In this document: piece by piece, positions 2,773 to 24,028 of the stretch
How the letters are laid out: every line of letters starts with the position of its first letter
Position numbering within the stretch: the first letter of the stretch is position 1
IMG/VR virus record: IMGVR_UViG_3300045257_000305
Coordinates: 1-45,355 of that record
DNA: 45,355 bases
Direction: 5' to 3' (one strand)
From: a virus
Made by a program: the position numbers and the translations under genes
Notes under the pieces: generated by a model
Database searches by the model: none
The model's input: the letters and a program-made list of their open reading frames with translations, nothing else
What the model was told of the DNA's origin: nothing

Positions 2773-2948
2773 GGCCGCCACTCCGAGCACGGCTCGCATA
2801 CCCACGTCTCGCAGCCAGCGGCAAAGACGGTGCGGACTCCCGGGCGCTGATCGCAGCAGTCACAGAGCGCGACCCGCTGGTAAGCGTCCACGACGCGGGA
2901 GACCTCAGCGTCCGTGCTGTCGGGGGTGAGGGTTTCGAGTGCTTTCAT
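2769..2948 (-). CDS. 59-aa zinc-knuckle mini-protein, first gene of the leftward operon
   Basis: ATG at 2948 is preceded by CGGAG with six-base spacing, a good ribosome binding site. The protein has two Cys pairs, CDCCD at about residues 29-33 and CETWVCEPC at about 46-54, spaced as in a small zinc-binding fold. As the first gene after the operator pair at 2974-3023 it may be a regulator or adaptor, but that is inference only. Confidence 0.7.
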   Translation of the reverse strand: MKALETLTPDSTDAEVSRVVDAYQRVALCDCCDQRPGVRTVFAAGCETWVCEPCSEWRP

Positions 2949-2973
2949 CGCAGGCTCCGAGGGTTCAACCGTG

Positions 2974-2989
2974 TAGCGAAATCTTGCTA
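2974..2989. promoter_or_regulatory. Operator-like palindrome OL1
   Basis: TAGCGAAATCTTGCTA is an inverted repeat (TAGC-N8-GCTA), extended by G/C on each side. It matches 15 of 16 bases of the site at 3823-3838 that sits in the promoter of the HTH regulator gene. It lies 26 bp upstream of the first leftward gene, so it is a likely repressor site for the leftward operon. On the minus strand TTGCAA, 17 bp, CAAGAT is a weak candidate promoter overlapping it. Confidence 0.6.
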
Positions 2990-3007
2990 CAACCCCAAGA
3001 GCATTGC

Positions 3008-3023
3008 AAGCTAAATATTGCTA
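3008..3023. promoter_or_regulatory. Operator-like palindrome OL2 (imperfect)
   Basis: AAGCTAAATATTGCTA keeps seven of the eight half-site bases of TAGC-N8-GCTA and the A/T-rich centre seen in the other two copies. Its centre is 34 bp from the centre of the 2974-2989 site, about three helical turns, which would suit cooperative binding. This is weaker than the other two sites. Confidence 0.4.
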
Positions 3024-3030
3024 GCGGTAG

Positions 3031-3369
3031 GCAAGGGCCTCTGAAGCGGGCCGAACGCCTCCCATCATCGAAGGCTGCAAAGCAATCCTGGCCGACGGAC
3101 AGCGCAGATTTTCGCGGGAGCTAGTGCCGGAACTGGAAAAGATGGGTATTCACGTCGGCGGCAAGAAGCCGAAGTCTCTTTTGGCGAGCTACCTATCGGC
3201 AGCCGATGATTTTGTCAGCGATCAGAAGTTAGGCGGATGGACGCTGCAATCCATCCAGAGGAAGGCAAGGACGGGCGAAGTTGCAGCTTCGCCCGTCCTT
3301 CGTTCTAACGGCTGGGAAACCCCTACCCACATGGTTAGTGCTGGGAAGGAGGATGCCGAACTTGGTTAG
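3031..3369 (+). pseudogene. HARE-HTH-like domain fragment
   Basis: The frame is open from 3031 to the stop at 3367-3369. It reads IIEGCKAILADGQRRF, then ELVPELEKMGIHVGGKKPKS, then LLASYLSAADDFVSDQKLGGW and TL. That resembles the GI-x-(I/V)-GGK-x-P...SxYLS...F...GGW-x-L pattern of winged-helix/HARE-HTH domains found at the C-terminus of bacterial regulatory or restriction proteins (from memory). The only usual start is GTG at 3124 after GGGAG, which would leave half a domain, so it is probably a decayed or acquired fragment. Its tail runs through the hairpin at 3267-3300. Confidence 0.45.
3267..3300. terminator. Strong hairpin with 14-bp perfect stem
   Basis: AAGGACGGGCGAAG at 3267-3280 pairs perfectly with CTTCGCCCGTCCTT at 3287-3300, with a six-base loop. 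The 3' side continues CGTTCT, so the U tract is poor. It probably acts as a terminator or RNA-stability element closing the fragment upstream and separating it from the tRNA genes. Confidence 0.6.
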
Positions 3370-3371
3370 CC

Positions 3372-3400
3372 ATCATCTCAGCTCAATTGCCCGAGATGAT
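3372..3400. other. Inverted repeat upstream of the tRNA genes
   Basis: ATCATCTC at 3372-3379 and GAGATGAT at 3393-3400 form an 8-bp perfect stem around a 13-base loop. It is followed by TTTCTGG and lies 16 bp before the first tRNA. It could be a weak terminator or a processing signal for the tRNA transcript. No protein-coding feature explains it. Confidence 0.35.
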
Positions 3401-3416
3401 TTCTGGTCTTGGACGA

Positions 3417-3489
3417 ACGCCCGTAGCTCAGCAGTAGAGCAGGTGGCTTCGTAACCCCAAGGTCGCTGGTGCAATTCCAGCCGGGCGTA
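3417..3489 (+). tRNA. tRNA, probably Thr (CGT) with irregular anticodon arm
   Basis: The 73-nt cloverleaf has acceptor ACGCCCG/CGGGCGT (7 bp), D stem GCTC/GAGC, T stem GCTGG/CCAGC with loop TGCAATT, discriminator A, then CC. The anticodon region GGTGGCTTCGTAACCCC does not fold cleanly. A seven-base loop gives anticodon TCG with two stem mismatches. Reading the loop as TTCGTAA, as in common tRNA-Thr(CGT), gives a C-C mismatch at the stem top; an eight-base loop is also possible. I am sure it is tRNA-derived, less sure of its identity. Confidence 0.65.
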
Positions 3490-3556
3490 CCTTCCTTAAC
3501 CAGAGCCAACCAAAAGCGAAGCTGCAGGGGTGTATGTTGAGATTTCGGTTTCTGTG

Positions 3557-3630
3557 GTGGCCGTAGTTCAAGCCTAAAGAACCCTCGGCTGGTATCCGAG
3601 AGATACGGGGCGGCACCCCCGTCGGTCACC
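3557..3630 (+). tRNA. tRNA-Thr (GGT)-like gene with unusual T loop
   Basis: Acceptor GTGGCCG/CGGTCAC (one G-T pair), D stem GTTC/GAAC, anticodon stem CTCGG/CCGAG with loop CTGGTAT (anticodon GGT) and T stem ACGGG/CCCGT all pair. The D loop lacks the usual GG and the T loop (GCGGCACC) lacks TTC, so standard tertiary contacts are missing. It is either a divergent phage tRNA or a tRNA-like RNA. It lies 67 bp after the first tRNA. Confidence 0.5.
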
Positions 3631-3816
3631 CACTTTTTCCTAGTCCTAGCAACACCTCGCAATGTCGCTTGCCCACGAGTTACGCACAACTGTTTGGTTT
3701 TGTGCAAGATTATGAGAGCTTAAATGTCACCCTCATCACCATCTTCATCATCATGACCGGCAAGACAAAGGCTACATCGCCAATATTCCGCGCATCTGCC
3801 TTCTGCATCGAACCGC

Positions 3817-3852
3817 TTGTCATAGCGAAATTTTGCTACTAGTATCACGGGA
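3817..3852 (+). promoter_or_regulatory. Regulator promoter with operator in its spacer; leaderless start
   Basis: The -35 TTGTCA (3817-3822) is followed by a 17-bp spacer and the -10 TAGTAT (3840-3845). The expected start site is 3851-3852, the A of the regulator's ATG, so the mRNA would be leaderless like lambda cI from pRM. The spacer holds the palindrome TAGCGAAATTTTGCTA (3823-3838), so a bound repressor would block polymerase directly. There is no Shine-Dalgarno before the ATG, which fits a leaderless message. Confidence 0.65.
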
Positions 3853-4103
3853 TGGACCTCGCACACGTCGTTTTGGACATAAGGACCCGAATTAACGCTC
3901 TGGGGATGACGCGCGAGCAATTGGCTCCGCGCCTGGGCGTCACGTATTCCTGGCTCTGCAAGTTCATGCAAGGTCACCGAGACGCGAGGAATCCGCGCAT
4001 CGGAACACTGGCGAAGGTGCAGAGCGGACTCGCCGAACTCGAGCGCAAGCCTGCAAATGAAAAACGCCCCGTGGGAGAAGTCCAACGGGGCGTTCTGCTT
4101 TAG
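3852..4103 (+). CDS. Cro/CI-type HTH transcriptional regulator
   Basis: 83 aa with an XRE-like helix-turn-helix at about residues 18-48 (REQLAPRLGVTYSWLCKFMQ). There is no C-terminal oligomerisation or protease domain, so it is Cro-sized rather than a full CI repressor. Its promoter contains an operator-like palindrome, and near copies lie before the leftward operon. It is therefore proposed as the autoregulated switch between the two divergent operons. The last 14 codons form a terminator stem, tying the end of the gene to the end of its transcript. The exact DNA target is inferred from position. Confidence 0.8.
   Translation: MDLAHVVLDIRTRINALGMTREQLAPRLGVTYSWLCKFMQGHRDARNPRIGTLAKVQSGLAELERKPANEKRPVGEVQRGVLL
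4063..4094. terminator. Bidirectional terminator inside the 3' end of the HTH gene
   Basis: AACGCCCCGT (4063-4072) pairs perfectly with ACGGGGCGTT (4085-4094) around a 12-base loop. On the minus strand the stem is followed by a run of five T residues; on the plus strand by TTCTGCTTT. It can therefore stop transcription in both directions, and is the better terminator for leftward transcripts. Confidence 0.7.
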
Positions 4104-4397
4104 GCGATCTGGGCTCTTAGAGGTCTGGATTCTGAAGCAGTTTCGATCGGGCTTCAAGGTCTTTCGTACGCCAGACCCGAATGCAGGCGGACGGCTCGCT
4201 GGGGGCGCAAGTCACGGGGCGAGTGAAAACTAAACCCGTGAGGCAGCCCTCTCTCCCCCTGCGCATCGATGGGGGGAGGGGGGGCAATGACTTGGAGTTC
4301 CGTGAGGTCAGGGTCGAGGAGGTGACGCAGGGCGCAGGGGATGAAGAGTGCAAGGGCGCACTCGGGGTGGTCAACCAACAGGTGAAGGAGGGTCTTC
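4104..4397. other. 294-bp region with competing open frames
   Basis: Between the HTH gene and the next well-supported gene, both strands are open. A minus frame (4154-4399, 81 aa, start MKTLLHLLVDHPECALALF) and a plus frame (4181-4414, 77 aa, start MQADGSLGAQ) both have GC-rich third positions, and neither has a good ribosome binding site. The minus-oriented T tract of the terminator at 4063-4094 slightly favours leftward transcription here. I cannot decide which, if any, is a gene. Confidence 0.35.
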
Positions 4398-4715
4398 ATG
4401 GCGGAGGCTCATAGCAAGAATCATACGCTCAATGTACTGGCGGATCACCCGCAGTACCGTCATCTGTTTCAATCGGGCCACAAAGCAGCGCAGTCTCCGA
4501 AGGAGAAGCGCCCCCCGTCTGCTCCGGTCCGTCTCCCGGTCCACTACCGCAAGCTGACTGACAACGCGATTCTCGCGAGCACCGGCCCCGTCATCTGCCG
4601 CGTGGGCGACCAGTTCACGGTATTCGACCGGCAGAGCTCTGACTCGCACACCGCCCGGTCCCTCGGGTGCTTCCCGAACGCTCAGGACGCCAAGGCGTTC
4701 GTCGCGCTCCTGTGA
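4398..4715 (+). CDS. 105-aa hypothetical early protein
   Basis: The ATG at 4398 follows AAGGAGG with six-base spacing, one of the best ribosome binding sites in the window. The N-terminal half is polar (His/Lys/Pro-rich). The C-terminal half reads like a compact beta domain (GPVICRVGDQFTVFD, then NAQDAKAFVALL). The family is not recognised. Its stop overlaps the GTG of the nuclease-like gene. Confidence 0.75.
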   Translation: MAEAHSKNHTLNVLADHPQYRHLFQSGHKAAQSPKEKRPPSAPVRLPVHYRKLTDNAILASTGPVICRVGDQFTVFDRQSSDSHTARSLGCFPNAQDAKAFVALL

Positions 4716-4990
4716 GCCGTCACCGCACGCACCGCAAGGACTCCACCCAGGACGCCATCGTCGAGGCGCTCCGGCGCTGTGGGTGCGCCGTATGGCCTAT
4801 CGGGGAGCCGTGCGACCTTCTGGTGAAACGCGGGGGGAGGCTTTTCCTCATCGACTGCGAGGGCACGACGAAATACCGGAAACGCGATGCCGCCCAGCTC
4901 GTCAACTTCCTGCGCTGGGGGGTGCTCATCGCGCATACCCCTGAAGAGGCCCTCGCATGCACATTCTCGACAGCACCCGTTATCGCTTGA
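4712..4990 (+). CDS. VRR-NUC-like small protein with altered active site
   Basis: 92 aa, GTG at 4712 overlapping the previous stop (GTGA). The layout AIVEALRRCGCAV, PCDLLVKRGGRLFLIDCEG, LVNFLRWGVLIAHTPEEAL matches small VRR-NUC (PD-(D/E)xK) phage nucleases, where GxPDLL and (I/L)EVK carry the metal-binding residues. Here D is kept in PCDLLV, but the E-x-K position reads D-C-E, so the catalytic lysine is missing. It may be inactive, use shifted residues, or act as a binding protein. The assignment rests on motif order only. Confidence 0.6.
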   Translation: MSRHRTHRKDSTQDAIVEALRRCGCAVWPIGEPCDLLVKRGGRLFLIDCEGTTKYRKRDAAQLVNFLRWGVLIAHTPEEALACTFSTAPVIA

Positions 4991-5328
4991 GGGTCTGGGG
5001 CCGCTGGGCGCAAGGGGGACTGCGCGGGTACCCGACCATGTGTGCGTTCCTGCAGATCGTGCATGCGCAGGACGTGGGGATCCCTCCGCAGGACATCCTG
5101 GAGACCGAATCCGCCGTCAACCGCGCAGAGCGTCACTACCGGATCGTGCTGGTGAAGGAGTTCTGTCACCGCGGGGCACGTCGGCAGAAGGCCTTCGAGC
5201 TGGATCTTCCGAAAACCACCTACGAACGTCGGCTAGATGAGGCGATGTGGGTCGTCCACACGGAACTTGACACTTGGGCCAAAAACACAGTAGAAAGGCG
5301 CAACATGCCCGTAGGCGTCAAAGCCTGA
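4957..5328 (+). CDS. Q-like antitermination protein
   Basis: 123 aa. ATG at 4957 overlaps the preceding gene by 34 bp, with GAGG upstream. The N-terminus (YRLRVWGRWAQGG) and the C-terminal sigma-like HTH (AFELDLPKTTYERRLDEAMW, about residues 79-98) match the layout of phage Q/DUF1133-type antiterminators. Such proteins bind at a late promoter, join the paused polymerase and carry it through a terminator. Context agrees: a consensus -35 lies inside the gene's 3' end, and an intrinsic terminator overlaps its stop codon. It is the last early gene before the 35-kb late region. Confidence 0.75.
   Translation: MHILDSTRYRLRVWGRWAQGGLRGYPTMCAFLQIVHAQDVGIPPQDILETESAVNRAERHYRIVLVKEFCHRGARRQKAFELDLPKTTYERRLDEAMWVVHTELDTWAKNTVERRNMPVGVKA
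5267..5296 (+). promoter_or_regulatory. Late promoter candidate (pR'-like)
   Basis: Perfect -35 TTGACA at 5267-5272, 18-bp spacer, -10 TAGAAA at 5291-5296 (four of six consensus bases). Transcription would begin near 5303. It lies within the 3' end of the antiterminator gene and just before a terminator, as pR' and tR' do after lambda Q. Confidence 0.6.
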
Positions 5329-15833: not shown

Positions 15834-18563
15834 ATGACCGATACGGCGAATACGCCTCTCGTCAAGTTCTGGAAAGACGAGATTGACCTCTATGAACGCA
15901 CCACGAACAAGTGGCTCCTGCGTGGGCGCAAGATCTACAAGCGCTACAAAGACGTCCGGTCGCCCCGCGAAGAAGCGGTCACTCGCTTTAACGTTCTCTG
16001 GTCCAACGTGCAGACACGGCTCCCCGCGCTCTATGCACGCGATCCTAAGCCGGAGGTAGAACGGCGTTTCAAGGATCGCGACCCGGTGGGTCGTTCAGTC
16101 GCCGAAGTCCTCGAGCGCTGCCTGGATTACACGATCCAGCACGTCAACCCCTTCGGGCGGATCCTGCGCCAGGTGGTGCTCGACTTTGAGTTGCCCGGCC
16201 GCGGCACGCTCTGGGTGCGCTATTCCCCCACCTTCAATCCCGGCCCCGAGAATGAAAAGCCGGGCGGGGCACCCGGCGGTACGGATCTGGAGGCCGACGA
16301 CGCGCAGGACAAGGCGGTCGCGGGCGGTACCCAGGACGACGAGGAGCAGGAGGAGGGGGAAGAGCTCGGGTATGAGGAGACGCTTCTCGACTACGTGTAC
16401 TGGGAGGACTTCGGTCACACCTGGGCGCGCACGTGGGATGAGGTCAGGGCGGTGTGGCGTCGGGTGTATCTCACCCGTGAGGAGATCGGCCAACGGTTCA
16501 AGTTGAGGAAGGGTCAGTTGGACCAGATCCCGCTCGACTGGTCGCCCAAGGGCATTGGCGATGGCAAGGTCGATGCCAAGCAGAAGAAGGCGATCGTCTA
16601 CGAGATCTGGGACAAGGAGAAGAAGGAAGCCCTGTGGATCGTCAAGAACTATCCTAAGGAGCTGGACGTCAAGGATGACCCGTTAGAGCTCGAGCACTTC
16701 TTCCCCTGTCCGCCGCCGCTCTATGCGAATCTGGCCTCGGATGAACTCATCCCCACGCCCAACTTCGTGTACTACCACGATCAGGCGCTGGAGATCGACG
16801 AGCTCTCCACGCGTATCAGTGCGATCGGCAAGGCGCTCAAGGTCTGCGGCATCTATGACAGCAGCGCAGCGGGGCTCGATCGCCTCCTGGCCGAAGGCGT
16901 CGAGAACACGCTCATCCCCATTGATGGCTGGATGGCGCTCAAGGAGAAGGGGGGCCTCGAAGGGGTGATGCAGCTCATCCCGTTGAAGGAGATCGCCGAA
17001 GCGCTGGCCTCTCTTCGTGAGCAGCGCCAGACGATGATCGATGACGTCTATCAGATCACCGGACTCTCGGACATCATCCGTGGGCTTTCTGAGCCCGAAG
17101 AGACCGCGACCGCCCAGCAGATCAAGGGCCAGTTCGCGGTGTTGCGGATCAGCGACGCCCAGCAGGAAGTGCAGCGGTTCTGCCGGGATACGCTGCGGAT
17201 CTGTGCGCAGATCATCTCAGGCTACGCCCTGCAGACCTTAAAGAAGATCTCCGGTGTCAAGCTCTTGACGAATGCCGAGAAGGCGCAGCTCCATGCTCAA
17301 CTTAGTCCCCCACCGCCGCCAATGCCCGGAATGCCTGGTATGGGTGGAGGTGCACTTCCCGCAGGCCATGCCGGAGCACCACTGCCCGGCGCGCCTCCCG
17401 CGGGAGGACTCGGCCTACCGCCCGCCCCCCCGGGTGCCGGTGGAGAACCGCCGGGAGGTGCTGGAGCGCCTGTACCGCCCCCAGGTGGTGCGCAGGGAGG
17501 AGGATCTGTCTCCCCCGAAAGACTCAAGCTCCTGAAGGAGCCGAGTTGGGAAGAGGTGGAAGCGCTCCTGCGCAATCCCGTCCTGCGGGAGTTCCGGATC
17601 GATGTGGAGACCGATAGCACGATCAGGACGGATGAGGATGCGGATCGCACCGCGCGCATGGAGTTCATCGAGGCCGTGGGCAAGATGATCAACGAGGCCT
17701 CTGCCGTGCCGAAGCCCATGATCCCGGCTGCCGGCGAGCTCATCCTCTTCGGTATCCGGGGCTTCAAGGTCGCGCGGAACCTCGAGCGCGTGTTTGAGGA
17801 TGCCATCGAGCAGCTTAAAGACATGCCTCCCCCGCCGGACCCGGAGATGATGAAGGCGCAGGCACAGGCCCAGAGCGCCAAGGAAGTCGCCGGCATCAAG
17901 GCGCAGACGGATATCCAGATCGCGAACGCCCAGCAGGCCGCGCAAGCCAAGGAAGATCAATTGCGTAGCCAGTTCGAAGCGCAGCGTTCGGTCACCGAAC
18001 AGCAGGCGAAGGCCCAGCACGAACAGCAGTTGGAGGACATCAAGGCGCGTTTCGAGGCCGAACGCACTCAGTTCGAGACCGCGTCCAAGGAGAAGATCGC
18101 CTCGGCCGATAACGCCACCAAGCTCCAAATCGCCGCGATGGAACACGAACACGAAAAGCAGCTCGAGGGCATGAAGCAGGCCCACGAGCAGAAGATCACC
18201 TCCATGACCCAGGACCACGAGAAGGCACTCGCCGTCCACAGCGCTGAGAGCGGCAAGGAGACCGAGAAGGTCAAGGGCGAAGAGGGCCGCAAGACCGAGG
18301 GCGTGAAGGCCGACAAGGCGAAGGAGCTGGAGTCGGTCAAGGGGTCTGAGTCTCGCAAGACCGAAGAGGTGAAGGGCGAACAGGTGAAGGCCGTCACGAA
18401 GCTGAAGCCCAAGGCCGAGGCAGAAGCCAAGGTGGAGGAGGAGAAGAAGGGCAAGGAGCCGACGCTTGAGGCCATCGAAAAGCTCACCCAGGCGCTCAAA
18501 GACGTCCGCAAGCCTCGGAAAGTCGTGCGCGATAAAGACGGTCGCATTGCGGAACTGCACTGA
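15834..18563 (+). CDS. Portal protein (P22-like), with P/G-rich insert and coiled-coil tail
   Basis: 909 aa, ATG at 15834. Residues 1-480 follow P22-type portals (KFWKDEIDLYERTTNKWLLR near the start, then NVLWSNVQTRLPALYARDPK, and the VYQITGLSDIIRG segment near 405). The portal dodecamer is the DNA gate and the site for TerL docking. Residues about 490-565 are a Pro/Gly-rich linker that coincides with an open +1 frame at 17293-17535. Residues 660-860 are a long Gln/Lys/Glu coiled coil with repeated KGE/KTE units. The length exceeds P22 gp1 mainly because of these two parts. Confidence 0.93.
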   Translation: MTDTANTPLVKFWKDEIDLYERTTNKWLLRGRKIYKRYKDVRSPREEAVTRFNVLWSNVQTRLPALYARDPKPEVERRFKDRDPVGRSVAEVLERCLDYTIQHVNPFGRILRQVVLDFELPGRGTLWVRYSPTFNPGPENEKPGGAPGGTDLEADDAQDKAVAGGTQDDEEQEEGEELGYEETLLDYVYWEDFGHTWARTWDEVRAVWRRVYLTREEIGQRFKLRKGQLDQIPLDWSPKGIGDGKVDAKQKKAIVYEIWDKEKKEALWIVKNYPKELDVKDDPLELEHFFPCPPPLYANLASDELIPTPNFVYYHDQALEIDELSTRISAIGKALKVCGIYDSSAAGLDRLLAEGVENTLIPIDGWMALKEKGGLEGVMQLIPLKEIAEALASLREQRQTMIDDVYQITGLSDIIRGLSEPEETATAQQIKGQFAVLRISDAQQEVQRFCRDTLRICAQIISGYALQTLKKISGVKLLTNAEKAQLHAQLSPPPPPMPGMPGMGGGALPAGHAGAPLPGAPPAGGLGLPPAPPGAGGEPPGGAGAPVPPPGGAQGGGSVSPERLKLLKEPSWEEVEALLRNPVLREFRIDVETDSTIRTDEDADRTARMEFIEAVGKMINEASAVPKPMIPAAGELILFGIRGFKVARNLERVFEDAIEQLKDMPPPPDPEMMKAQAQAQSAKEVAGIKAQTDIQIANAQQAAQAKEDQLRSQFEAQRSVTEQQAKAQHEQQLEDIKARFEAERTQFETASKEKIASADNATKLQIAAMEHEHEKQLEGMKQAHEQKITSMTQDHEKALAVHSAESGKETEKVKGEEGRKTEGVKADKAKELESVKGSESRKTEEVKGEQVKAVTKLKPKAEAEAKVEEEKKGKEPTLEAIEKLTQALKDVRKPRKVVRDKDGRIAELH
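17293..17535 (+). CDS. Nested +1-frame gene inside portal: Cys/His mini-protein
   Basis: 80 aa, ATG at 17293, with AGAAGG nine bases upstream. It reads MLNLVPHRRQCPECLVWV, then an EVHFPQAMPEHHCP segment that supplies a C-x2-C ... H/H-x-C metal-binding pattern, then a charged helix (VENRREVLERLYRPQVVRRE). By hand count, 72 of 80 codons end in G or C (90%), against 38 of 80 in the portal frame over the same bases. The portal product here is only low-complexity Pro/Gly, as expected if selection acts on the nested frame. I recognise no family. It could be an accessory factor made with portal. Confidence 0.6.
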   Translation: MLNLVPHRRQCPECLVWVEVHFPQAMPEHHCPARLPREDSAYRPPPRVPVENRREVLERLYRPQVVRREEDLSPPKDSSS

Positions 18564-18901
18564 TGCCCGTCTACGTCTGGCATTGCGCGACCTGTAAAGC
18601 AGACCTCGAGATCTTCCGTCCCGTCGCCCAGTACCGGCTAGCCCCTAAGCATGCTCACCCGGTCACCCGCGTGATCACCGCCGCTCACGTGAACGCCGAC
18701 ATCAAGCCCTATGTGGCGGTGGCGGGCGACATGGCCGGGAAAGAGATCAGCTCCCGCAGGGCTCACCGGGAGTTCCTGAAGCGCAACCGGTTCGTGGAAG
18801 TGGGGAATGAGCCGATCCGGGCCATCAAGAACGATACGCGTCCGAAGAAGGGCGAAGTGGCCGCAGAACTGAAACACGTCATCCAGCCCTACCTGAGGTA
18901 G
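18563..18901 (+). CDS. FmdB-like zinc-ribbon protein
   Basis: 112 aa. ATG at 18563 overlaps the portal stop (TGATG). It begins MPVYVWHCATCKADLEIF, the usual start of FmdB-type regulatory zinc ribbons, but the second Cys pair is missing and replaced by LAPKHAHP. The rest is basic. Such genes are common between portal and scaffold in podoviruses; the role is unknown. Confidence 0.7.
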   Translation: MPVYVWHCATCKADLEIFRPVAQYRLAPKHAHPVTRVITAAHVNADIKPYVAVAGDMAGKEISSRRAHREFLKRNRFVEVGNEPIRAIKNDTRPKKGEVAAELKHVIQPYLR

Positions 18902-21432: not shown

Positions 21433-22086
21433 ATGGCAAAGCTCACTTTCGCAAGTCCGCAGGTCAACGCTGCAGTCTCCTACAACTGGAGCGTTCTCTC
21501 TCCCTACATCGGGGATCTCGACATCGGTCCCGTCTCAACGGATGCCCCCGGCGTAGGAGCCGGCTCCGGCATCAACACCATCACGACGTCCATCGCGCCG
21601 CGCCCGATCTTCCAGCCCGTGTTGGGCCAGATCGTGCAGGCTTACGAGCCGACGTTGGGGTATGGGGAGTTCATCTACCTGGCCGTGCCCACCTCAACCG
21701 CCGTTCCGCTCGGGACCGTGGTGACGTGGTTCACCGGTGCGCTGGCGAACTACACGGTGGCCGTCATTCCGACGACCGCCAAGGGTGGCGAGCCGGCAGC
21801 GGTGTGTGTCTCGAATACGGCCGGTGCGACCGGCGGTATCACGAGCAATACGACGTCCATTCAGTATGCGTGGTTCCAGTTGGTGGGACTGGCGTATGCG
21901 CTGAAGACGGCGGTGATTCACACACTCAACGGCCGCGTGTTCGTGTCGGCAACGGCCGGTCGCGTCATGGTGACGTCAGCGGTGGGTACGGAGCTGATCG
22001 GTGCGCGCTTTGCGAACAGCAATAGCGCAACGATTTCGCTTGCGCTCATCTGGATGGATCGCCCCAACAAGATCACGGCCATCTGA
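21433..22086 (+). CDS. Virion protein after the capsid gene
   Basis: 217 aa, ATG at 21433 after AGGAG. It is a beta-rich protein (start MAKLTFASPQVNAAVSYNW; later VHTLNGR-like and VMVTSAVGTELIGARF stretches) that normally sits immediately after the coat gene, from which it is now separated by the homing endonuclease. A head decoration or coat-accessory role is inferred. Family not recognised. Confidence 0.7.
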   Translation: MAKLTFASPQVNAAVSYNWSVLSPYIGDLDIGPVSTDAPGVGAGSGINTITTSIAPRPIFQPVLGQIVQAYEPTLGYGEFIYLAVPTSTAVPLGTVVTWFTGALANYTVAVIPTTAKGGEPAAVCVSNTAGATGGITSNTTSIQYAWFQLVGLAYALKTAVIHTLNGRVFVSATAGRVMVTSAVGTELIGARFANSNSATISLALIWMDRPNKITAI

Positions 22087-22096
22087 TGGCTTAACG

Positions 22097-24028
22097 ATGC
22101 TGAACATCTGCTGTCTCTGTACAGGTTTAGCCTTTGGCAACGAGTACGTCGAGATTTTATACAGCATGGTTCGGCGCAACCTCGCGGGGGGTACCCGTGG
22201 ACGCTTCATCGTGTTCACGGATGACCCCTCGCGCTTTTCTTCGATGGCGGGCGTAGAGACCCGTACGCTCCCCTCATGGCTCAAGGGCTGGTGGGGGAAG
22301 CTTTACCTGTTTTCTGAAGACGCGTTCCCCAAGGGCGAGCGCGTTCTGTACTTCGATCTGGATACGGTCATCACCGGCCCCCTGGATGAGATCGCGGCCT
22401 ATGACGGGCCGTTGGCGATCCTGCGCGATGCTTACCGGCCTCATGGATTCCAGAGTTCGGTGATGGCGTGGCGCGCCGGGAGCATGGAGTTTCTGTGGGA
22501 CGACTGGCTCTTTGCCGGCGAACCGCACGTGAACGGCGGCGATCAGGCATGGATTGAGCAGACGCTGTGTTTCAAGCCCGACCTGTGGCAGGAGTTATTC
22601 CCCGGGAAGTTTCGCTCTTACAAGACGGACTGTACCGAATTCGTTCCACGTGGAACCTCTGTCGTGTTCTTTCACGGCTTCCCCCGCCCTCATCAGGCGC
22701 CCGGGTGGGTGCAGGATGTCTGGAAGGTGGGCGATGCCCCGCTCTTCTTCAAGCAGAACACCAAAGAGACGGAACTGCGCGCGAATATCACGCATGCGCT
22801 TTCCAAACCTCGCTGGATCGAGCGACGGGATGGGACGGTGCAGGCGGCGCTCATCGTCGGGGGCGGGCCGAGCCTTGAGAACGAAGTCTGGCGCATTCGC
22901 GGTTACCAGCTCTCAGGCGGCATTGTCTATGCGACCAATAACACCTGGGGGTATCTGAAGGAGCGCGGGGTGACCCCCGAGGCGCATGTTATGCACGATG
23001 CGCGGGCGGGGAATCTCCCCTTTGTCGCCCCCGAAGGGGTCTGCTACTACGCCTCGCAGTGCCACCCGACCGTGCTCGATGCGGCCGGGGACCGACTCAT
23101 CTGCTGGCATCCCTATAGCGAAGTGGCGCTCGAGGTGAGCGGGGAGAGTACCCAGGGCCCGACCATGGTCGCCGGTGGGTCCACTGTGGGCCTGAACGCC
23201 ATTGCGCTCGCCTACATCCTGGGACACCGGACGTTTCTTCTCTTCGGGTTCGACTCCTCTTACGCGGAAGGGGAGCATCACGCCTATTCCCAGCCACTGA
23301 ACGACGGGGAACTCGTGCTGGAGGTGCAAGGCGATGGCAAGCCCTTCCGCGCAGCGCCTTGGATGGTGCAACAGGCCGACCAGTTCATGGGGCTCGCCCG
23401 GAACCTTCTGGCGCTCGGGTGCGAACTCTACATCTACGGGGACGGCCTCTTGCCGACGATGGCGCGATCCAAGTCCACGGAACCCACCGCTGCGGACCTT
23501 CGTGCCAAGAGCCTGCACGAATGGCTGAAGGACATCGAAAACCCGGTGGGGGCGGAGATCGGAGTCTTTGCCGGCGACCTCTCGCGCCTCCTCCTGTATC
23601 GGCCGGACTTGACCCTATACCTGGTGGACTCGTGGACGTCAGAACACGCCGAGCGGTATGCCCAGTCCGGGGACTTTCACGCCCAGCTCTCCCAGGAGCA
23701 CCAAGACCGGTTCTTTCAGATGACGCGACAGGTGGTGGAGTTCGCCGGTCCCCGGGCGAAGATCCTGCGGCAGGACTCGCAAGAAGCCGCCAAGGCCATT
23801 CCTGATCGGTCACTGGACTTCGTGTTCATCGATGCCGATCACAGTTACGAGGGGTGCAAGGCCGACATCGAAGCCTGGCTCCCGAAGATCAAACCCGGAG
23901 GCTTCATCTCCGGTCACGACTACGAAAACACCGAGTTTCCTAAGTTCGGTGTGAAACGGGCCGTGGATGAGATGTTCACTCGCATCGAACTCGGCGAGAA
24001 CTTCACTTGGCGCAGGAGAATTGAATGA
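22097..24028 (+). CDS. Three-domain glycosyltransferase / DUF115-like / methyltransferase fusion
   Basis: 643 aa. ATG at 22097 (MLNICCLCTGLAFG); an upstream extension is only a shadow of the preceding gene. Domain 1 (about 1-215) resembles GT-A/GT8-type glycosyltransferases, with a VLYFDLDTVITGPL segment at 84-97 carrying D-x-D. Domain 2 (about 245-400) has ALIVGGGPSLE at 251-261, NNTWGYLKERGV and LFGFDSSYAEGEHHAY, resembling DUF115/MptE-like and Maf flagellin-glycosylation proteins. Domain 3 (480-643) is a Methyltransf_24-like SAM enzyme (VGAEIGVFAGD, DFVFIDADHSYEG, GGFISGHDYE). Together they suggest the making, transfer and methylation of a sugar. The target is unknown. Confidence 0.82.
   Translation: MLNICCLCTGLAFGNEYVEILYSMVRRNLAGGTRGRFIVFTDDPSRFSSMAGVETRTLPSWLKGWWGKLYLFSEDAFPKGERVLYFDLDTVITGPLDEIAAYDGPLAILRDAYRPHGFQSSVMAWRAGSMEFLWDDWLFAGEPHVNGGDQAWIEQTLCFKPDLWQELFPGKFRSYKTDCTEFVPRGTSVVFFHGFPRPHQAPGWVQDVWKVGDAPLFFKQNTKETELRANITHALSKPRWIERRDGTVQAALIVGGGPSLENEVWRIRGYQLSGGIVYATNNTWGYLKERGVTPEAHVMHDARAGNLPFVAPEGVCYYASQCHPTVLDAAGDRLICWHPYSEVALEVSGESTQGPTMVAGGSTVGLNAIALAYILGHRTFLLFGFDSSYAEGEHHAYSQPLNDGELVLEVQGDGKPFRAAPWMVQQADQFMGLARNLLALGCELYIYGDGLLPTMARSKSTEPTAADLRAKSLHEWLKDIENPVGAEIGVFAGDLSRLLLYRPDLTLYLVDSWTSEHAERYAQSGDFHAQLSQEHQDRFFQMTRQVVEFAGPRAKILRQDSQEAAKAIPDRSLDFVFIDADHSYEGCKADIEAWLPKIKPGGFISGHDYENTEFPKFGVKRAVDEMFTRIELGENFTWRRRIE

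Follow-up and report, generated by a model that had tools for sequence, protein, structure and literature searches.

Among tailed phages, a complete small gene lying inside another gene, on the same strand and in the +1 frame, is known from the embedded two-component spanins such as lambda Rz/Rz1, and gene callers tend to miss embedded out-of-frame genes of this kind (PMC6139136). The +1 frame is also the frame of most overprinted viral overlaps (PMC8227390). The locus described here lies in a virus record of 45,355 bases, which was analyzed as a whole and is hereafter called the window; an earlier note on its sequence had proposed that a second protein is encoded inside the portal gene. To our knowledge, fully nested out-of-frame genes of tailed phages have rarely been documented beyond the lysis cassettes, and a full-text search of the open-licence literature, judged by titles and abstracts, returned no description of an overlapping gene in a portal gene.

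A second open frame in the portal linker

The outer gene of the locus encodes a portal protein, which is distantly related, by tblastn, to the portals annotated in Myxococcus phages Mx8 and Mx9. The portal-frame product of about 17272-17535 is a flexible Pro/Gly/Ala linker, and in portal relatives this linker is missing or of different length. Homologous +1 frames were found by tblastn at the same portal location in two further records, L001 (IMGVR 3300044656_000117, portal 70% identical to that of the window; tblastn 9e-12) and L026 (IMGVR 3300005458_000068, portal 74% identical; tblastn 5e-17). The comparison rests on these three sequences, all of them uncultured contigs. The features of the locus in the window are the following:

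15834..18563, + strand: portal protein gene, 909 aa (PHROG 12082 'portal protein', E 1.4e-182; tblastn to annotated portals)
17266..17268, + strand: upstream TGA stop of the nested frame, inside the portal LLT codons (TGA in L001 and TAA in L026, same place)
17272..17535, + strand: longer nested form of 87 aa from the alternative ATG 17272 (an ATG common to L026, not L001)
17278..17283, + strand: purine-rich AGAAGG, candidate Shine-Dalgarno sequence, part of portal E-K codons (GGAGAAAG in L001, GGAGAAGG in L026)
17291..17531, + strand: Pro/Gly/Ala linker of the portal, overlapping the nested gene in the other frame and joining the portal core to the C-terminal LLKEPSWEEVEALL domain (translation, compared with portal relatives)
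17293..17535, + strand: putative nested gene, 80 aa plus stop, +1 relative to the portal ORF, with the start given in the earlier note (homologous frames in L001 and L026; conservation tests)
17323..17334, + strand: CPEC (nested Cys11 and Cys14), candidate zinc ligands, invariant in all three phages
17377..17385, + strand: HHC (nested His29 and Cys31), with H-x-C invariant in all three phages
17449..17508, + strand: charged C-terminal helix RREVLERLYRPQVVRREEDL, the most conserved portion (alignment; AlphaFold2 helix)
17533..17535, + strand: TGA stop of the nested frame, within the conserved portal LLKEP codons, at the identical place in all three phages

The earlier note had described an 80-codon ORF with its own ATG and AGAAGG upstream, CPEC and HHC clusters and a charged helix, all inside a Pro/Gly linker of the portal. 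Each of these parts was present, the AGAAGG ending 9 nt before ATG 17293; the linker is more exactly Pro/Gly/Ala, the outer ORF is indeed a portal and the helix is C-terminal. The open +1 frames begin at 17269 in the window, 6247 in L001 and 5451 in L026, and in all three phages the bounding stops stand at the same two places (TGA/TAA upstream, TGA downstream). The predicted nested proteins are MLNLVPHRRQCPECLVWVEVHFPQAMPEHHCPARLPREDSAYRPPPRVPVENRREVLERLYRPQVVRREEDLSPPKDSSS in the window, LLKPYSLQCPLCQQELQMVGLSLLPDHLCSPKPVPVEDRRQVLERVYRTQVNQREQALIPRKSGS in L001 and MRRRPLLLNRSQCPKCLEWVEVQGPGEIPHHLCKAVLPPQEDRRQVLERVYRSQVNSREQALTPKRSGC in L026, and their frames, which show a 12-codon difference in length, remain in frame and stop-free. 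Q-C-P-x-C, P-x-H-x-C and E-x-R-R-x-V-L-E-R-x-Y-R-x-Q-V-x-x-R-E are invariant in the three proteins, the fuller consensus of the helix being E[ND]RR[EQ]VLER[LV]YRxQVxxRE. When relatives were inspected as the earlier note had suggested, the stop-free frame and all four Cys/His residues were found to be kept in L001 and L026, but the ATG at 17293 was not.

When viral contigs were searched with patterns of the nested frame, and in a scan of genomes, L001 and L026 came up again and nothing more. The nested profile, run against 369 genomes of the class of genome G008, yielded short weak matches alone (E 4e-4 or weaker), two of which had internal stops. One weak match (E 0.011), obtained by tblastn of the nested proteins against distant portal loci found in genomes, was judged to be due to chance.

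In a tree of the portal core, the window, L001 and L026 formed one clade (99/99), whose sister is a group of four phages with a Pro/Gly/Ala linker and no nested gene (100/99). L027 lies outside both, with an unbroken portal, a short P-rich linker and no nested frame. The nested frame is thus limited to the clade of the window, L001 and L026, while the portal frame extends more widely, to the sister clade and the outgroup. Three of the sister phages (G003, L032 and L034), whose P/G/A linker occupies the corresponding position but contains no nested homologue, served as a control.

GC3, codon usage and ORF length

The GC3 counts reported earlier were recovered (72/80 in the nested frame, and 38/81 codons in the portal frame over the same bases). 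Their reading as a sign of constraint on the nested frame had to be abandoned, since the observation that the earlier note itself had named as contrary to it was made: the same shift occurs in the P/G-rich linkers of gene-free sister phages, where portal GC3 drops on entering the linker from 0.91 to 0.68 (L032), from 0.90 to 0.59 (G003) and from 0.96 to 0.69 (L034). Any Pro/Gly/Ala linker gives a high nested GC3, as the third nested position falls on the first position of a portal codon, and the codons for these three residues all begin with G or C. Codon usage over the window linker gave a mean log P of −0.96 in the +1 frame, near the median of true genes, versus −1.65 in the portal frame, below the 1st percentile; the linkers of L032 and G003, which contain no nested gene, showed the same reversal. 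Both GC3 and codon usage were consequently ruled out as evidence for the nested gene by the sister-clade control.

Pro/Gly/Ala linkers with strongly lowered wobble GC and no overlapping gene were seen in the portals of the GC-rich phages L032, L034 and L039. The lowering possibly reflects avoidance of extreme GC.

The length of the ORF was likewise set aside as evidence; it is unremarkable, since almost all large genes of this GC-rich phage contain shifted-frame open stretches of 80-333 codons. With this portal protein, about 25% of linkers would lack stops in +1. The abundance of such frames and the GC3 shift in gene-free P/G/A linkers are what one would expect if the nested ORF were a spurious product of a GC-rich Pro/Gly linker, with a GC3 shift of purely compositional origin. 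Such an artefact would, however, leave unexplained the conservation of the +1 frame at the protein level across three phages and its absence from the sister clade; the three contigs are not copies of one another, as 26-30% of the residues of the L001 and L026 portals differ from those of the window over the aligned length, and the conservation tests described below refute it. We therefore assign to it a practically negligible probability.

Conservation of the two frames

In order to separate nested from portal constraint, null distributions were generated in which the portal protein was held fixed while synonymous codons were shuffled or resampled, and the nested alignment score was compared with them. 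None of the 5,000 shuffles or resamplings per test reached the observed nested similarity, whichever pair was taken (z 7-20). The outcome was the same when codon ancestry was modelled from the rest of the portal (0/5,000), and when codons in the ancestry null were paired by the nested alignment (0/4,000 in six runs, z 4.8-7.4). A scan along the portal gave +1 z values of 5.1-6.9 in the linker versus −2.8 to 3.3 outside the linker region. Synonymous identity, pooled over pairs, was 0.61-0.76 in the linker versus 0.34-0.47 in equally variable columns 110-160, and d3/(d1+d2) was 0.40 versus at least 0.84 elsewhere in the portal; over the linker, the portal frame combines diverging residues with wobble sites that are better conserved than in the rest of the gene. 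The comparison of synonymous sites in both frames, which had been put forward as a check in the earlier note, thus came out with reduced synonymous change in the linker and with no null run reaching the observed value.

The reverse null, in which the nested protein was held fixed, left the P/G/A content of the portal frame above expectation, which indicates that both frames are constrained. Throughout the overlap the portal frame is open and richer in P/G/A than the nested protein would lead one to expect. The earlier statement that the constraint lies on the nested frame holds in so far as that frame is constrained in three phages; it does not hold as a contrast with the portal, which is constrained as well.

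As for the sister clade, the linkers of G003 versus L032/L034 gave +1 z values of −1.3 to −1.7 and contained stops in +1, with no nested coding; their synonymous identity was 13/45 to 15/44, versus about 0.70 outside, and their d3 was 0.75. The near-identical pair L034/L032 (+1 z 1.5, +2 z 2.7) is too alike to inform.

The +2 frame of the carrier phages was also more similar than expected (z 3.2-7.4), and any wobble-level constraint would raise +2 similarity too. Wobble conservation might in principle be caused by an RNA or DNA element, be it a structure, a regulatory site or a packaging signal, with the open +1 frame as a by-product; +2 does exceed the null, though less than +1 in most comparisons, and the window segment folds somewhat better than its shuffles (z −2.7). 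The L001 segment, however, folds no better than shuffles (z +1.3), no Rfam match was found, and an element of this kind would have to accommodate three stop-free frames with a 12-codon in-frame length difference, invariant Cys/His residues and a sister clade without such constraint. We regard it as highly improbable. At the level of these comparisons, the +1 frame proved to be conserved as a protein in three phages to a degree that the portal protein and common descent do not explain. That the nested frame is a real coding sequence is strongly supported by the comparison, not by GC3.

Origin of the overlap

The linker junction coincides with breaks in other portals. In Bradyrhizobium phage ppBjS10J-1 (L043, OP596615.1) the portal at 2938-5213 consists of two ORFs that overlap at ATGTGA, exactly at the linker junction; the annotated start of the second ORF lies some 190 bases farther downstream. 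L016 has a distinct ORF for the C-terminal portal domain, preceded by an intervening ORF.

The nested gene would have been overprinted, on the branch leading to the carrier clade, onto a linker that was already there. One gain over such a linker is the simplest history, and we consider this order of events the probable one, as against a linker that formed over a former neighbour gene or a portal that fused through it. According to the opposite order, a small gene once stood between separate genes for the portal core and the C-terminal domain, and was later read through by an extended portal frame, which would make the linker the younger of the two frames. The split portals of OP596615 and L016 (the latter with its intervening ORF) would agree with this course of events, as would the codon usage of the linker, which suits the +1 frame (−0.96) and not the portal frame (−1.65). 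Against this, the portals of the sister clade and L027 are unbroken and their P-rich linkers lack the nested gene, and the sister-clade linkers have the same codon-usage reversal, which means that the direction of origin is not told by codon usage. The reverse order is unlikely in our estimation, and it keeps some weight because the linker junction is a natural break point.

Proposed translation of the nested frame

At the position of ATG 17293 the codon is TTG in L001 (6268) and TTA in L026, and at that of ATG 17272 it is ATG (5454) in L026 and CAG in L001. The NUG candidates are ATG 17293 and ATG 17272 in the window, TTG 6268 only in L001, and in L026 either ATG 5454 or a CTG after GGAGAAGG. 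The duplex energies of the Shine-Dalgarno-like sequences (−4.9 to −6.6 kcal/mol) fell within the portal-wide background.

We propose that ribosomes would initiate internally on the late portal mRNA, just past the purine-rich GGAGAA(A/G)G / CGAGAAGG, at a NUG start codon (ATG in the window, TTG in L001, ATG 5454 or CTG in L026). The conserved +1 coding could alternatively be reached by programmed ribosomal frameshifting, which would yield a shortened form of the portal that ends in a zinc-knuckle tail, and no free protein. Frameshifting would suit the lack of a start codon common to all three phages and a Shine-Dalgarno-like signal not above background, and a portal without its C-terminal part may be tolerated, given the natural breaks at the junction (the ATGTGA overlap of OP596615, and L016). 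By inspection, however, no shared slippery sequence is apparent in the stretch from the conserved upstream stop to the CPxC codons, the portal codons there differing among the window, L001 and L026, and the window and L001 each have a NUG at the usual distance from the purine-rich stretch; frameshifting is therefore distinctly unlikely. Internal initiation at a NUG codon is favoured over it, and a separate protein would be produced from the nested frame.

Predicted properties of the nested product

The nested product had no match below E 0.05 in Pfam, PHROGs or NCBIfam and no relative among phage or plasmid records. The best E value was 0.2 in a PDB profile search and 3.8 in a fold search; the lysW and MORC-CW matches in PDB (E about 0.5 or worse) were discarded. 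An AlphaFold2 model of moderate confidence consisted of a hairpin that carries CPxC and a helix of 20 residues (pLDDT about 80-92 in the helix, pTM of the whole 0.26-0.33). The +1 product would be a small independent protein, roughly 65-87 aa long. Its predicted architecture is a zinc-knuckle-like hairpin (CPxC-x(14)-HxC) and, at the C-terminus, a charged helix of some 20 residues; from the four invariant Cys/His residues we infer that the protein may bind zinc.

As a tentative proposal, to which we give slightly less than an even chance, the protein might be a zinc-binding accessory made with the head genes and acting through its helix at head/portal assembly or packaging. This role was taken as a first guess because the product would come from a late head-gene transcript. 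A function in host takeover or in regulation is the main alternative.

The gene directly after the portal (window 18563-18901) has an FmdB/Zn_ribbon_8-like N-terminus with the first CxxC only (E 0.0053, below the cut-off), and fuller zinc ribbons are found in the corresponding gene of G003, L032 and L001. We dropped the possibility that the nested gene stands in for a degenerated zinc ribbon downstream, since L001 retains a fuller ribbon. Between the head and tail genes of the window, positions 22001-24028 encode a 675-aa protein with glycosyltransferase (PHROG), MptE-like and Methyltransf_24 domains, and a similar-looking open frame of 592 aa is present at 10435 in L001.

Discussion

Collectively, these results make it very probable that the region of about 17272-17535 is dual-coding and specifies, besides the portal linker, a separate small +1 protein that would be overprinted, internally initiated and a putative zinc-binding accessory. 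The wider proposition, that overprinting in a portal linker gave rise to a new zinc-binding family of phage proteins, made together with the portal and acting on head assembly or on the host, seems to us evenly balanced. Tailed phages can, on this evidence, hide a second gene in a core capsid gene and, if this is true, a core head gene has served as a nursery for a new one. The sister clade, with the same type of linker and no gene, provides a built-in control, and the locus lends itself to clean studies of how a protein with Cys/His residues can emerge on top of a linker of low complexity. A practical warning also emerges: an overlapping gene should not be inferred from a GC3 or codon-usage contrast over a Pro/Gly linker, but can be from conditional synonymous conservation.

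The predicted product resembles small CPxC/HxC zinc-knuckle and zinc-ribbon proteins, such as that of the downstream Zn_ribbon_8/FmdB-like gene, in a Cys/His spacing that could hold one zinc on a beta hairpin. It differs from the known zinc-knuckle and zinc-ribbon families in having no significant sequence or fold match to them and in its own E[ND]RR[EQ]VLER[LV]YR C-terminal helix. With Rz/Rz1 the locus shares a small same-strand +1 gene nested in a gene of a tailed phage. Rz1, however, is a lysis-cassette lipoprotein encoded in an i-spanin gene, whereas here the outer gene is a portal and the nested product has CPxC/HxC and no lipobox; an embedded Rz1-like o-spanin was rejected, the nested translation having no hydrophobic signal peptide and the outer gene being a portal. 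In evolutionary pattern there is a parallel with overprinted viral genes such as phiX174 E and K (reviewed in PMC8227390), with which the nested frame shares a narrow distribution, reduced synonymous change in the outer gene, an orphan product and the +1 frame. Overprinted genes are best known from small viral genomes, while the present one would belong to a tailed dsDNA phage, with a window of about 45 kb, and would lie within a core head gene.
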